DNA of 64,000 nt from Sulfuracidifex tepidarius (GCF_008326425.1 NZ_AP018929.1:944875-1008874); one strand, 5' to 3'. Numbered from the stretch's first letter, positions 34,909-41,126 are shown. Notes: generated by a model from the letters alone, not told the origin. Program-made: numbers and translations.

Positions 34909-34998
34909 GCCGCCGTAGCTCAGCCCGGCTAGAGCGCCGGACTCATACGATCCAGAGGGGATATCCGGTTGTCCGGGGTTCAAATCCCCGTGGCGGCA
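34909..34998 (+). tRNA. tRNA-Met (anticodon CAT), with 15-nt intron; integration site
   Basis: Acceptor GCCGCCG with TGGCGGC, D arm GCTCAGCCCGGCTAGAGC, anticodon stem CCGGA (34937-34941) with TCCGG (34964-34968), anticodon CAT at 34944-34946, T arm GGGG-TTCAAAT-CCCC. A 15-base intron (34948-34962) follows base 37, the usual place for archaeal introns. It looks like the elongator. From base 38 onward the gene is repeated at 37793, marking it as the target of an integrated element. Confidence 0.9.
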
Positions 34999-35035
34999 CC
35001 TTAACTAAATTTGCTAAAAATTTCAATAGTTTTCT
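34963..35035 (+). repeat. Left attachment repeat (attL), 73 bp
   Basis: Identical over 73 bases to 37793-37865. It begins exactly at the first base of tRNA-Met exon 2, covers the rest of the tRNA gene and 37 bases downstream. Only this copy belongs to a complete tRNA. Confidence 0.9.
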
Positions 35036-35106
35036 AGATAAGAATAACTACCAAAGGAGTAAGAATTTGACAACAATAATTAATACAATCGTGTATGTTT
35101 AAGTTT

Positions 35107-35649
35107 TTATCTTTCCCCGAAACGATACTTATAAGTCTCGATCTTACTCTTCAAATTATCAACCAACATTTTAGTCTCAAAGCTTACACTCTTTCTTTGC
35201 ATAGCCTCCTCAGCCCTTGACAAGTACTCCTTAGCCCTCAAATACAAGTCTTTATTATCATAAGCTATAGCATTCTGCAGATACATCATGCCAATCATGG
35301 CTAACTGTTTAATATACTCCTCACCTTTAGCAAACTTAAGCTTAGCCTCAAAACTCTTAATATATTTCTCGTCAATAGATTGTCCGCTGTCCGGTAAGAT
35401 TGTAATGGATACCCTCTTCATAAAGGGGGTAATAAGACCACGACTTTCTAAGTACCTCTTAAAGTAAGTAGCCGAAACTACAAATACTAATATAGGAATA
35501 ATAGTACTAAGAGTGTTGGCAAGTGTCATATCATGTAGTATATAGTAAGGAATAGAAAACGATAACACCACAGCCACTACAGTAGGTAAACCTATAAATA
35601 GTAATGCTAGACCGAGCCATTTAAAAAAGGATAACCTCTTTTCTTCCAT
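35107..35649 (-). CDS. Two-span membrane protein, candidate immunity or export partner
   Basis: 180 residues. Two membrane helices (about 10-32 and 44-63), then a cytoplasmic, helical C-terminus: GQSIDEKYIKSFEAKLKFAK, LAMIGMMYLQNAIAYDNKDL and RAKEYLSRAEEAMQRK, resembling a tetratricopeptide-like hairpin. No known domain recognised. It lies 44 bases after the cysteine-rich gene on the same strand. A broken paralog stands in the same position next to the right att repeat. A role as immunity protein is inferred from this pairing alone. Confidence 0.65.
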   Translation of the reverse strand: MEEKRLSFFKWLGLALLFIGLPTVVAVVLSFSIPYYILHDMTLANTLSTIIPILVFVVSATYFKRYLESRGLITPFMKRVSITILPDSGQSIDEKYIKSFEAKLKFAKGEEYIKQLAMIGMMYLQNAIAYDNKDLYLRAKEYLSRAEEAMQRKSVSFETKMLVDNLKSKIETYKYRFGER

Positions 35650-35693
35650 AACCTATCCCCTGGTTAGTATTATTTATGATACTTAAAAAATTT

Positions 35694-36353
35694 CTAACAA
35701 CATAGACCAGCTTTCTGACATAGATATTCTCCACCTAGCCCGCAAGCAGTTGCTACACCTAATGAGATAATTAATTGGAGTAATTCGTCACAAGAAGGTA
35801 TACATATCACTACACATATACCGTAGATAACAGGATCCTCAATAAATATTAGACAAACCTCACCACAAGCTTCATCGCATGCTACACTTTCAGCAACGCC
35901 TTCGGCTAGCAATCCGCATAGTACAGAAACTATTGCTTTACATATTTCACATTCTATCGGATTCGGATCTTTCCCTTCTTCACTTTTTTGTTGTAAAGGG
36001 TAAGGTTGGTATAGTTTATCTGGTACTAGTAATTCCTTATTCTCTATCCTCTTAGTCTTAGTTCCGCAACCAGACACTCCTTCCTTAATCAAAACCCTAT
36101 GCTTATCCCCTTCCCTTCCTAAATACTTCACCTTAAAACTTCTAAGTATACTTTCGGAACCGTAGTTTATCCTATAAGTTGTCTCGTGCTCACCGAAAGG
36201 GTCACCTTCTACCAACTGACTCCATTGGATTATCTTTGACGGTTGCCCTTCATACTCTATTAATGTCACTCCTTGTCTAAAAATTCTCTTATCATCTTTC
36301 TTCTCTTCATAATGCAATAATTTAATGCTCTTAGGCTTTAAACTCTGAGGCAT
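35694..36353 (-). CDS. Cysteine-rich halocin C8-like archaeocin precursor (candidate)
   Basis: 219 residues. Residues 1-130 are soluble and charged, with one Cys (96). Residues 135-219 are hydrophobic with 13 Cys, opening CEICK (135-139) and closing CQKAGLC (212-218) plus a final Cys. Halocin C8, a haloarchaeal peptide antibiotic cut from the C-terminus of a precursor, has the same plan: about 75 residues, CxxCK at the start and CxxAGLC at the end. In that system the N-terminal part is the immunity protein. No signal peptide is seen here. A TTTAAA box about 23 bases before the ATG suggests a leaderless message. Similarity is from memory and pattern, not alignment. Confidence 0.6.
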   Translation of the reverse strand: MPQSLKPKSIKLLHYEEKKDDKRIFRQGVTLIEYEGQPSKIIQWSQLVEGDPFGEHETTYRINYGSESILRSFKVKYLGREGDKHRVLIKEGVSGCGTKTKRIENKELLVPDKLYQPYPLQQKSEEGKDPNPIECEICKAIVSVLCGLLAEGVAESVACDEACGEVCLIFIEDPVIYGICVVICIPSCDELLQLIISLGVATACGLGGEYLCQKAGLCC

Positions 36354-36696
36354 GGAAGAATTGAGAACTTTAAAAAAAAGTTAACTATAATAGAACATCT
36401 TGGCAATATTCATCACTTATTTTTATTCTAACCTAACTAGGTTATAGTTTGAAAGGGTGTGCAATTATCTTTTGAAACTAGATGCAACAGAAGTCCTTAA
36501 ATCAGCATAGAGATGCTAACAGCCTTAACAGATACCGAAGATATGAATAAGAGGATCAAAGAGGATAAAGCTATGTTCAAATCCGTAGTTTCATCAAAAA
36601 AATATAATTAGTGTTGAGTATAAAGACAAAATCTCCACGTAAGAAGATAATGCATAGAACTCTTTGTACATTTAAAGAAAATTTGTAAATATTTAG
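36354..36696. other. Intergenic gap inside the element
   Basis: About 340 AT-rich bases. Contains the promoter of the cysteine-rich gene and a weak plus-strand frame (MLTALTDTEDMNKRIKEDK, near 36510-36610) too short to call. It separates the protease pair from the cysteine-rich pair, so these may be two transcripts. Confidence 0.35.
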
Positions 36697-37128
36697 TTAA
36701 AGATCGTTAGCCTTAATAATTAGTCTAACGTTTGTGTCGAAGCATATCATTATTCTTGAGAAGAAATCTTCCCTACCTAAAATTAGGCTGGGATATATAC
36801 CCTCACCTAAATTTACGAAATCTAAAGATGCAACTGGTATCTGTAATGTCTCATTAAGTTCCACGAAATGAAATTTTATGTTATACCTTTCTTTTGTAGT
36901 GAGCAGATTAGAAATTATAACTTTATCGACTAAACGGTTTTTTAACGAGGATTCATCAAAACACTTTAAGAACGTATCATTTCTAATGACAGAAAACCTA
37001 CTTCCAGTATCTAGAAGGGCATAAACTAAATACTCACTACCTAGTTTTGGACACTCCATTTCCACTTTAAGTAAAGGTAAATACGTATCATTAACCTTGA
37101 CAAAAGGTACTTCTATCTCGCGAGACAT
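36697..37128 (-). CDS. Retropepsin-like aspartyl protease
   Basis: 143 residues. Active-site ALLDTGSRFSVI with Asp40-Thr41-Gly42, then the second hallmark SLILGREDFFSRI (ILGR box) near residues 113-124: the single-domain, dimeric retropepsin fold. Such proteins process other proteins. Its gene follows the 55-residue gene by 2 bases. In this cassette it could release the cysteine-rich peptide from its precursor; this is inference. A C-terminal remnant of a homologue lies at 39728. Confidence 0.8.
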   Translation of the reverse strand: MSREIEVPFVKVNDTYLPLLKVEMECPKLGSEYLVYALLDTGSRFSVIRNDTFLKCFDESSLKNRLVDKVIISNLLTTKERYNIKFHFVELNETLQIPVASLDFVNLGEGIYPSLILGREDFFSRIMICFDTNVRLIIKANDL

Positions 37129-37130
37129 TA

Positions 37131-37298
37131 TTAACTCTCTACATATTTGATGGAGACTAAAATATCGTAAGTCCCTTTCTTATAACCCTTCTTCTCCATG
37201 ATCTTATCAATCTCCTCTTCAGAATCAGCCTCAGCAACAATTCTTCTATTATAATCTATTGCGTAATATTTCCTCATAACCTTGATGGGAGTAGTCAT
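37131..37298 (-). CDS. Small conserved protein, first gene of the cassette
   Basis: 55 residues: KVMRKYYAIDYNRRIVAEAD, then SEEEIDKIMEKKGYKKG and DILVSIKYVES. Beta-beta-alpha pattern, similar to short archaeal proteins (DUF5678-like) whose function is unknown. The stop is 2 bases before the protease start, so the two are translated together. A frameshifted paralog of equal length is at 40691. It could be an inhibitor, chaperone or DNA-binding protein for the cassette. Confidence 0.7.
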   Translation of the reverse strand: MTTPIKVMRKYYAIDYNRRIVAEADSEEEIDKIMEKKGYKKGTYDILVSIKYVES

Positions 37299-37792
37299 AT
37301 TCTCAATTTAAATATAAACTTGCAGGGCTATAACTTTGTCTGCTATGCTCTATTAACGAATTTTTGAACTAGAAATGTTAGTGTGCTTGGTTGTTTAGTA
37401 TTTAAAAGCTTAGAATGCCTCTTCACTCAGAAAAAGAGGAGAAAAATAAGTGTTAGGAGACAATAATAACAATATCAGCTGCAAAAGTTAATGCATATTG
37501 GTTATTTGGTCTAAAAAGCTCGAATATGACAAAAATCTATTTTTAACATCATTTTCAAAAATCGAAATGAAATAATATTCACGTTATAGATAAAATATTA
37601 TGGCAAGAAGTTCAAGATTTATACACTAGAATAGAGGAGAATGACAAAGTAACTGAGGTGTTTAAGGGTTTAACATCTCATACGATGTAGATTCTTTCAT
37701 CTAATACTTAATCTAAATTATATTATTAGAATGAAAATTAACCCTTTAACACAAAGGTGTTAAATCAAGCCTATTAATTTAACGTTTTTTAC
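37299..37792. other. AT-rich tail of the element
   Basis: About 490 bases. A plus-strand open stretch (ILWQEVQDLYTRIEENDK, about 37590-37690) ends in a stop but has no start; it may be a gene remnant. An inverted pair TTAACAC/GTGTTAA near 37742-37762 could form a short stem. No integrase fragment is recognisable. Confidence 0.35.
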
Positions 37793-37865
37793 ATCCGGTT
37801 GTCCGGGGTTCAAATCCCCGTGGCGGCACCTTAACTAAATTTGCTAAAAATTTCAATAGTTTTCT
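37793..37865 (+). repeat. Right attachment repeat (attR), partial tRNA-Met
   Basis: Exact 73-base copy of 34963-35035. It holds exon 2 of tRNA-Met only, without acceptor 5' strand, D arm or anticodon, so it is not a working tRNA. Confidence 0.9.
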
Positions 37866-37934: not shown

Positions 37935-38541
37935 TTATCTTTCTCCGAAGCGGTACTTGTAAGTCTCAATTTTACTCCTCAGGTTATCAACGAGTGCTTT
38001 AGCCTCAAAACCCACGCTCTTTCCCTGCATTACCTCCTCAGCCCTTGACAAGTACTCCTTAGCCCTCAAATAAAGATCCTTGTCGTCTTAAGCTACAGCG
38101 TTCTGCAGATACATCATGCCTAGCATGGCTAACTCCGCCACATAATTTTCCGACTCCTTATCTGAAAACGCTAACGCTTTCTCATATCTCTTAATCACTT
38201 TTTCATCAATGGGTTGTCCGCTCTCTGGAGAGATTATATACTTAGTCCTAGCCTCTTTTTTCCTTATTCCAGGAGGTCTTATCCCACGCCTCATAAGATA
38301 TCTGTCAAGGTAAGTGGACAATGTCGCACCTAATGTAGAGGATATTATAGCGCTTAAGGAAACGGATAATATTAAGCTATGTAAAAAGATATAAATAATG
38401 TCATAAGCCAAAATAAGCACTATAGCTGATGGCAATGCTGAAAATAATAGGATAAGTAAGACGTATTTTAAAGTTGATATCTGTTTAGTAGGACCAAAGA
38501 TAACCTTATTTGTTTCGTGTTTTTCCTTACTTACTTACCAT
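37935..38541 (-). pseudogene. Broken paralog of the two-span membrane protein
   Basis: Homologous throughout to the gene at 35107: GQPIDEKVIKRYEKALAF, LAMLGMMYLQNAVA, then an in-frame TAA where the sister has Tyr, and beyond it DDKDLYLRAKEYLSRAEE with the same RFGER end. At the other end the ATG at 38541 is followed by a duplicated TAAG that breaks the frame after four codons. Both lesions together make it a pseudogene. It lies 70 bases from the att repeat, against 72 in the intact copy, so whole segments were duplicated or integrated in the same manner. Confidence 0.8.
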
Positions 38542-38956: not shown

Positions 38957-39337
38957 GAACTAACTACACTAAAAATCCACGATACTATAATTAAACGCGA
39001 TACTAATACTGAACCAGGGATAATTAACGTGGACGTTATAGGCATTGCAATTTATTCCGCAATAGAAGACCTAATTAATTATCACGATATTAGTAGAAGT
39101 TTAGCAGTATTGACATACCATTTGATAACTTCTCACCCTTTCGTTGATGCTAATAAGAGGACTACTTTCGTACTGTTATTAAACATATTATACGAATTAT
39201 ATGATAAAGAAGTCCCACAAGACTTAGAAGAGGAATTAATAAAGACCTTAGTTGAGGTAGCCGATAACCCACCAAAAGAAGATGAATACACAATAAATAA
39301 AATAAGGAAAATTATACAGAAGATTATTGAAGATTAA
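38957..39337 (+). CDS. Fic/Doc-family protein, start uncertain
   Basis: The Fic/Doc core is HPFVDANKRTTF (HxFxDANKR), preceded by a helix AIEDLINYHDISRSLAVLTY. Doc-type proteins are kinases acting on translation factors; Fic proteins AMPylate. The first usual codon is a GTG at 39029 (102 residues), but homology-like sequence (LKIHDTIIKRDTNTEPGIIN) continues in frame back to about 38957 without a proper start, so the gene may have lost its beginning. No separate antitoxin (Phd-like) gene is visible. Likely part of the accessory island. Confidence 0.6.
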   Translation, partial: ELTTLKIHDTIIKRDTNTEPGIINVDVIGIAIYSAIEDLINYHDISRSLAVLTYHLITSHPFVDANKRTTFVLLLNILYELYDKEVPQDLEEELIKTLVEVADNPPKEDEYTINKIRKIIQKIIED

Positions 39338-40690: not shown

Positions 40691-40857
40691 TTATAATTTC
40701 TCGTTTTCTACTACTGTTAAAATGTCATATTGGCTCCTCTTATACCCTTCTTTTTCATTATCTCTCCAACTTCCTCCCACGAATTACTCCCAGCTATAAT
40801 ATTCCTATTCTCGTCAATTGCCAAATACATCCTAATAATCTTAATAGTATCAGACAT
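40691..40857 (-). pseudogene. Frameshifted paralog of the 55-residue cassette protein
   Basis: From the ATG at 40857: TIKIIRMYLAIDENRNIIAG, SNSWEEVGEIMKKKGIRGAN, then a one-base loss; the next frame continues DILTVVENEKL to a stop at 40691-40693. Adding one base gives exactly 55 residues and matches the gene at 37131 all along. As read, a 46-residue protein ends at 40717. Confidence 0.7.
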
Positions 40858-41126
40858 ACGCTCCCAAAGTAAATGCAAACATCTAAAATTATAGCTCTGC
40901 TTGTCTTATATTACTTCAGATTTTAAATTAGAAGTTTTGACTCATTATCTATACACCTAAGTATCTTATGTTCGTACCCTCGTATTAACATCTTCTTTTT
41001 AAAATATATTTTATAGAAATAAATTTTCATAATTAGATATTATAGAAATTAATAAGGGAATTAATATTTTTCCTTTTAGTTAATGTTTCCGAAATGTTAA
41101 TTTACTTAATAGATAACTCAAACTAG

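Follow-up and report, generated by a model that had tools for sequence, protein, structure and literature searches.

Comparison with related genomes makes it rather probable that the genes at 35036-37792 of the window, the 64,000-nucleotide stretch of the Sulfuracidifex tepidarius genome (2.56 Mb, single contig) analyzed here, comprise an archaeocin-type toxin-immunity pair and a passenger module, with a cartridge of the pair being swapped on integrase-less cassettes. The specific immunity factor is likely the membrane protein, and not the N-terminus of the precursor as in halocin C8. Block exchange between two alleles, together with asymmetric decay that leaves orphan membrane genes, points to toxin-immunity behavior.

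Cassette layout

The bounds of the cassette coincide exactly with the inner edges of two identical 73-bp direct repeats at a tRNA-Met gene (Table 1). Related att-bounded cassettes occupy tRNA-Met in several genera and, along with the identical repeats, bear out the original prediction of a tRNA-Met-integrated element. A plain ARAGORN run called the tRNA gene Tyr(ata) at 34909-35000 and SeC(tca) in relatives, which is an intron artefact that disappears with the intron option.

All four ORFs lie on the - strand and encode proteins of 55, 143, 219, and 180 residues. Just 2 bp separate the 55-residue ORF from the protease ORF and 44 bp separate the 219- and 180-residue ORFs, with 343 bp between these two pairs. 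This spacing suggests that the cassette is composed of two two-gene units rather than a single four-gene operon. The ORFs, motifs, 13 cysteines, and two membrane spans described in the original prediction were all re-found, and its four-gene cassette stood with respect to genes, order, and bounds, although not as a single operon.

Table 1. Coordinates of features in and around the cassette, counted from the first letter of the window.
Feature	Position	Strand	Basis
tRNA-Met(CAT) gene with 15-nt intron, integration target	34909..35000	+	ARAGORN, intron option
att copy 1: tRNA-Met 3' exon and 35 bp downstream	34963..35035	+	73-bp repeat, 100% identical
180-residue membrane protein, type A, proposed immunity protein	35107..35649	-	Hydropathy, AF2, homologues
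Allele-specific block: peptide coding region and TM half of membrane gene	35390..35951	-	DNA identity, A vs B
219-residue precursor, whole gene	35694..36353	-	TIGR04449 match; 9 of 31 family genomes have homologues
Proposed toxin: halocin C8-like, Cys-rich peptide domain at the C-terminus (residues 135-219, 13 Cys)	35697..35951	-	Invariant Cys, TIGR04449
N-terminal domain, residues 1-134, constant between alleles	35952..36353	-	93% identity A/B; AF2 model
143-residue retropepsin-like aspartyl protease	36697..37128	-	D[ST]GS and [IVL]LGRE motifs; here LLDTGSRFSVI, ILGRED
55-residue DUF5678-like small protein, constant neighbor of retropepsin	37131..37298	-	Aligns with pHVE14 WP_011225168.1
att copy 2	37793..37865	+	100% identical to 34963-35035
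Type-B membrane (immunity) gene broken by an in-frame TAA	37935..38534	-	tblastn 54% to type-A protein, with stop

A halocin C8-like domain in the precursor

The peptide domain opens with C-E-I-C-K and closes with C-Q-K-A-G-L-C-C. As predicted, it resembles halocin C8: residues 135-218 matched the full length of the TIGR04449 profile (1-69 of 69, E 1.3e-4). The score was 22.8 bits with the annotated start, where the curated cut-off is 24, and 25.7 bits at the same place in a six-frame search. Among 398 genomes of the phylum searched in six frames, three relatives in the same family scored above the cut-off (24.7-32.3 bits). Matches were found in the window, its genome's second copy, G014, G015, G020, and G006, all at full profile length except for G006. 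A profile built from the family itself added one match outside that family but within the order (G496). Four full-length homologues, with peptides as little as 58% identical and dN/dS of 0.03-0.35, share all 13 cysteines without exception. Because the cysteines are conserved at this divergence, their spacing is not due to chance.

Like halocin C8 and other TIGR04449 proteins, the 219-residue protein has a longer N-terminal part followed by a C-terminal Cys-rich peptide with a CxxC-x7-C opening and a C...GL(x)C ending, a spacing read from the window and haloarchaeal sequences. Unlike in halocin C8, the peptide has 13 rather than 10 cysteines, the N-terminal domain is unrelated, shorter, and predicted to be beta-rich, and the pair has a Sulfolobales host, swappable alleles, and a 180-residue immunity candidate with a large predicted cytosolic domain. 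Halocin C8 is Tat-exported and Haloferax precursors have Tat-like N-termini, whereas inspection of the window precursor revealed no Tat signal, its N-terminus (MPQSLKPKSIKLLHYEEKK) having neither an RR motif nor a hydrophobic stretch. Its lack of a signal peptide, noted in the original prediction, was thereby confirmed.

A single-sequence AF2 model of the N-terminal domain contained seven long beta strands (7-111) and a linker at ~119-134 with moderate to low confidence. The fold of the peptide domain was not predicted (pLDDT ~35). A saposin-like fold was considered for the peptide on account of the CxxC opening and GLC ending. Foldseek returned no significant match to the single-sequence models of the precursor or the membrane protein. 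Searches of PADLOC, PHROGs, and PDB sequences gave nothing useful for the precursor. Scans of a collection of genome contigs returned no relative where a genome search returned many, and the silence of the contig collection was given no weight.

Membrane-protein genes also accompany halocin C8-like genes elsewhere. Haloarchaeal loci were searched with a halocin C8 sequence, and the matches are independently annotated as halocin C8-like. In Haloferax lucentense, Halobacterium salinarum, and Haloferax larsenii, as in the window, a small membrane-protein gene lies downstream on the same strand; in these three loci it encodes a strong TM span and is 19-109 bp away. A small membrane-protein gene also follows the halocin C8-like gene in G006 (a frameshifted homologue) and G496 (divergent). 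No obvious relationship links these downstream proteins, which would be expected for immunity genes. Separately, a divergent gene for a 75-residue two-span membrane protein (L124:3033-3260 and L125:3026-3253) lies immediately upstream of two haloarchaeal halocin C8-like genes.

Exchange of a block between two alleles

The window genome has a second full-length copy (allele B) at 937013-937672, roughly 43 kb away, in which both the peptide and the membrane protein differ. N-terminal domains of A and B are 93% identical (dS 0.30), as compared to 58% for the peptides, where dS is saturated. The TM half of the membrane protein is 36% identical and the cytosolic half 72%. DNA identity drops from 93% to ~42-75% at 35930, where the peptide starts, and recovers to 67-87% below ~35390, which is the lower block edge and lies after the second TM helix. 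The peptide and TM half are thus exchanged as one contiguous, sharp-edged block between constant flanks. Since identity recovers inside the membrane gene, these data suggest that the hairpin, and not the whole membrane protein, matches the peptide.

Only two alleles were seen. Nine pairs could be assigned, and in each the peptide is of the same type as the membrane protein; five are A/A (window, L030, L031, L033, and L034) and four are B/B (L009, L032, L035, and L038:6861), although this concordance could reflect mere physical linkage of neighboring sequence. Joint exchange of putative toxin and immunity sequences, as expected of a toxin-immunity pair, is seen here at the sequence level. Bacterial polymorphic toxin-immunity and bacteriocin-immunity systems have a constant N-terminus, a variable C-terminal toxin that is swapped with the adjacent immunity gene, and orphan immunity genes. 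The pair in the window shows the same constant and variable pattern, and its relatives include orphan immunity genes, but the precursor is small and without known trafficking domains, and the swap reaches no further into the immunity gene than its membrane half.

Asymmetric decay and the proposed site of immunity

Hydropathy placed two spans in the 180-residue protein (12-30 and 41-59). Its single-sequence AF2 model has helices at 2-39 and 41-69 and an all-helical domain at 94-172 (pLDDT ~80-96), such that the predicted architecture is an N-terminal two-TM hairpin with a cytosolic helical domain. Homologues occur in 14 of 31 family genomes, and the protein had no match in PADLOC or PHROGs. A distant chromosomal homologue (25-28% identity; L116:5463-6029 and L117:5551-6111) adjoins an ABC-2 permease and is genus-conserved; it is possibly an ancestor, or a general immunity or transport protein.

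In five of 12 peptide/membrane pairs the precursor is broken but the membrane gene is intact, and no pair shows the reverse (one-sided p 0.03, two-sided 0.06). This asymmetry is expected if toxin loss is tolerable but immunity loss is not. Five more genomes (G001, G007, G021, G028, and G030) have an intact membrane gene without a precursor, and in G001 it is the sole content of a 0.75-kb att-bounded cassette. Signs of purifying selection on these orphans are mixed: G028/G030 gave w of 0.16 in the TM half and 0.38 in the C-terminal half, and G007/G021 gave w of ~1 in the TM half with very few changes. The membrane protein had originally been proposed to serve in immunity or export, and block exchange and asymmetric decay are consistent with immunity.

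A different division of labor is found in halocin C8, where ProC8 gives both the peptide and an immunity protein, HalI (PMC11509114, PMC8628083). By this precedent the N-domain of the window precursor would be the immunity protein, and the membrane protein would have another role, such as export. Consistent with that arrangement, four distinct deletions removed the peptide but spared the N-terminal ORF (about 118-134 residues), which now stops at residue 134 in L033, ~121 in L035, and ~118 in L036 and L038, with dN/dS of ~0.1 in truncated L033 and L035 against the window gene. The membrane gene is intact in L033, L035, and L036. However, intact truncated forms may be recent relics (w reaches 0.59 in L036), and retention of the N-terminal ORF is not universal, since in L034 and L038:6861 it was the N-terminus that was lost. 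Moreover, the N-domain does not follow specificity, being nearly invariant between alleles while the peptides vary, and it has no detectable similarity to haloarchaeal precursor N-termini (hhalign P 0.42). It is also predicted, with low confidence, to be all-beta, whereas a helix-loop-helix is reported to be essential in HalI according to the title of Mei 2008 (via PMC11509114). We therefore regard N-terminal self-immunity, which the original prediction had implied, as quite unlikely, and favor the membrane protein as the immunity factor.

The retropepsin as a probable passenger

The 143-residue protein is a retropepsin by its motifs, weak profile matches, and best PDB match. It matched Pfam RVP at E 0.24, 11 homologues matched several aspartyl-protease families (best E 0.0045), and the best PDB match of their profile was the DDI1 retroviral-like protease (E 0.01). 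Asp40 and Gly118 are invariant in the 11 homologues. The protein shares D[ST]G and hydrophobic-hydrophobic-G motifs with clan AA retropepsins (DDI1-like), from which it differs in being very divergent and paired with a DUF5678-like protein. The Pfam match of the 55-residue protein itself was not significant, and that of its pHVE14 counterpart was (PF18929, E 3.6e-6). Just upstream of another DUF5678-like/protease pair is a longer protein (L080:4509-5518) with an N-terminus resembling the DUF5678-like partner, which may be a fusion.

We considered whether the four genes are a dedicated biosynthetic cassette in which the retropepsin cuts the precursor. The same gene order recurs beside intact, truncated, or broken precursors in L030, L031, L033, L035, and L038, an intact protease exists somewhere in every genome with an intact precursor (G000, G014, and G020), and a homologue of the protease is present in 8 of the 9 genomes that carry a precursor (Fisher p 0.015, kinship ignored). 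In addition, the maturase of HalC8 is reported as unidentified (PMC12893001). Against a dedicated role, the 55-residue protein and protease occur without a peptide gene in at least 13 loci, one of which (L069) retains a membrane gene relic, and on conjugative plasmids of S. islandicus, pHVE14 among them. The window is the only one of four intact precursors with an intact adjacent protease: the protease is broken in L030, reduced to a 53-bp scar at the genome's own B copy (L009), and ~16 kb away in L032 (G020). Conversely, an intact protease adjoins four precursors that are broken or truncated (L031, L033, L035, and L038). The protease has no signal peptide or TM span by sequence and is therefore probably intracellular.

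Because the DUF5678-like/protease pair also occurs independently of the peptide, a dedicated maturation protease, as originally proposed, was set aside. A dedicated four-gene cassette is unlikely, though it may hold in part beside the toxin-immunity pair, and the retropepsin and DUF5678-like protein are probably a separate passenger module. Since all genomes with intact precursors also encode an intact protease, the protease might still act on the precursor in trans.

The nearby protease gene, the mobile cassette, and the missing signal peptide would also suit a module for addiction or abortive infection that works inside the cell. The peptide, once unleashed, would then kill its own cell much as protease-activated pore formers do, the membrane protein would be the antidote, and nothing would be secreted. 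Yet PADLOC returned no match, orphan antidote genes in precursor-free genomes better fit resistance to an outside toxin, and one member of the domain family is a proven, secreted archaeocin (PMC11509114). We consider such a module improbable and retain the reading of an archaeocin with a membrane immunity protein.

Mobility of the cassettes

Att-like repeats flank related cassettes at loci L030, L033, L035, L038, L111, L069, and L037; by genome, such cassettes are in G014, G015, G025, G012, G001, and G013. HMG-CoA synthase adjoins the tRNA-Met locus in the window, G014, G015, and G012. Proteins of the cassette reach 94-98% identity with their counterparts in genomes of genus g7, exceeding the 74-77% identity of the flanking HMG-CoA synthase, which indicates that cassettes have been transferred horizontally between genera. 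A search between the two repeats found no integrase ORF, and all four Phage_integrase matches in the window genome are > 100 kb from the cassette, from which we infer an integrase acting in trans.

Directly behind the second repeat, the broken type-B membrane gene (37935-38534) is 90% identical at the DNA level to the L009 B cassette. Its position indicates that an earlier B cassette once occupied the same tRNA-Met site. We rejected an origin of the toxin pair in viruses or plasmids, as neither the 219- nor the 180-residue protein had relatives in phage or plasmid records, including none for the precursor in IMG/VR. The same island holds a Fic/DOC domain ORF at 39029-39337 (PF02661, E 1.2e-8). 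At 40694-40905 of the window is a frameshifted, decayed DUF5678-like small gene with 50% identity to the 55-residue protein.

Discussion

We propose that gene 3 encodes a precursor with a constant beta-rich N-domain, a linker, and a C-terminal disulfide-rich peptide that would act on membranes of related Sulfolobales after cleavage in the linker. Export without a signal peptide might proceed through a host exporter, vesicles, or lysis. Gene 4 would encode the cognate immunity protein, with its two-TM hairpin blocking the matching peptide in the producer's membrane. This hairpin would be carried on the conserved cytosolic helical domain, on which the constant N-domain may dock. Swapping the peptide and hairpin as one block would yield at least two specificities, and orphan immunity genes would be retained as protection after toxin loss. 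The cassette would move without an integrase of its own by recombining at the 3' half of tRNA-Met.

Literature searches found no paper on the pairing described here, and an earlier listing of these Sulfolobales proteins is possible. Sulfolobicins (SulA/SulB) are likewise archaeocins of Sulfolobales, and we know of no halocin C8 domain in them. They are set apart by consisting, as described in PMC8628083, of two proteins that carry signal peptides. The SSV-encoded toxins of Sulfolobus (B310 and others) also come from mobile elements of Sulfolobales and leave their carriers protected, but they are described as virus genes with Sec signals (PMC8628083).

More broadly, we tentatively suggest a module-exchange archaeocin with a swappable peptide and hairpin cartridge, in which membrane immunity, and not self-immunity alone, is general to archaeal halocin C8-like toxins. 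Halocin C8-like peptides have been described mainly from haloarchaea, and, to our knowledge, few Sulfolobales toxins have an identified gene. If our reading is true, the halocin C8 family extends to acidic hot springs, a specific immunity candidate is named, and natural matched and mismatched toxin and immunity alleles are available for direct tests. We know of no assigned role for the small membrane proteins beside haloarchaeal halocin C8-like genes, and these results would suggest that they may also be immunity factors.
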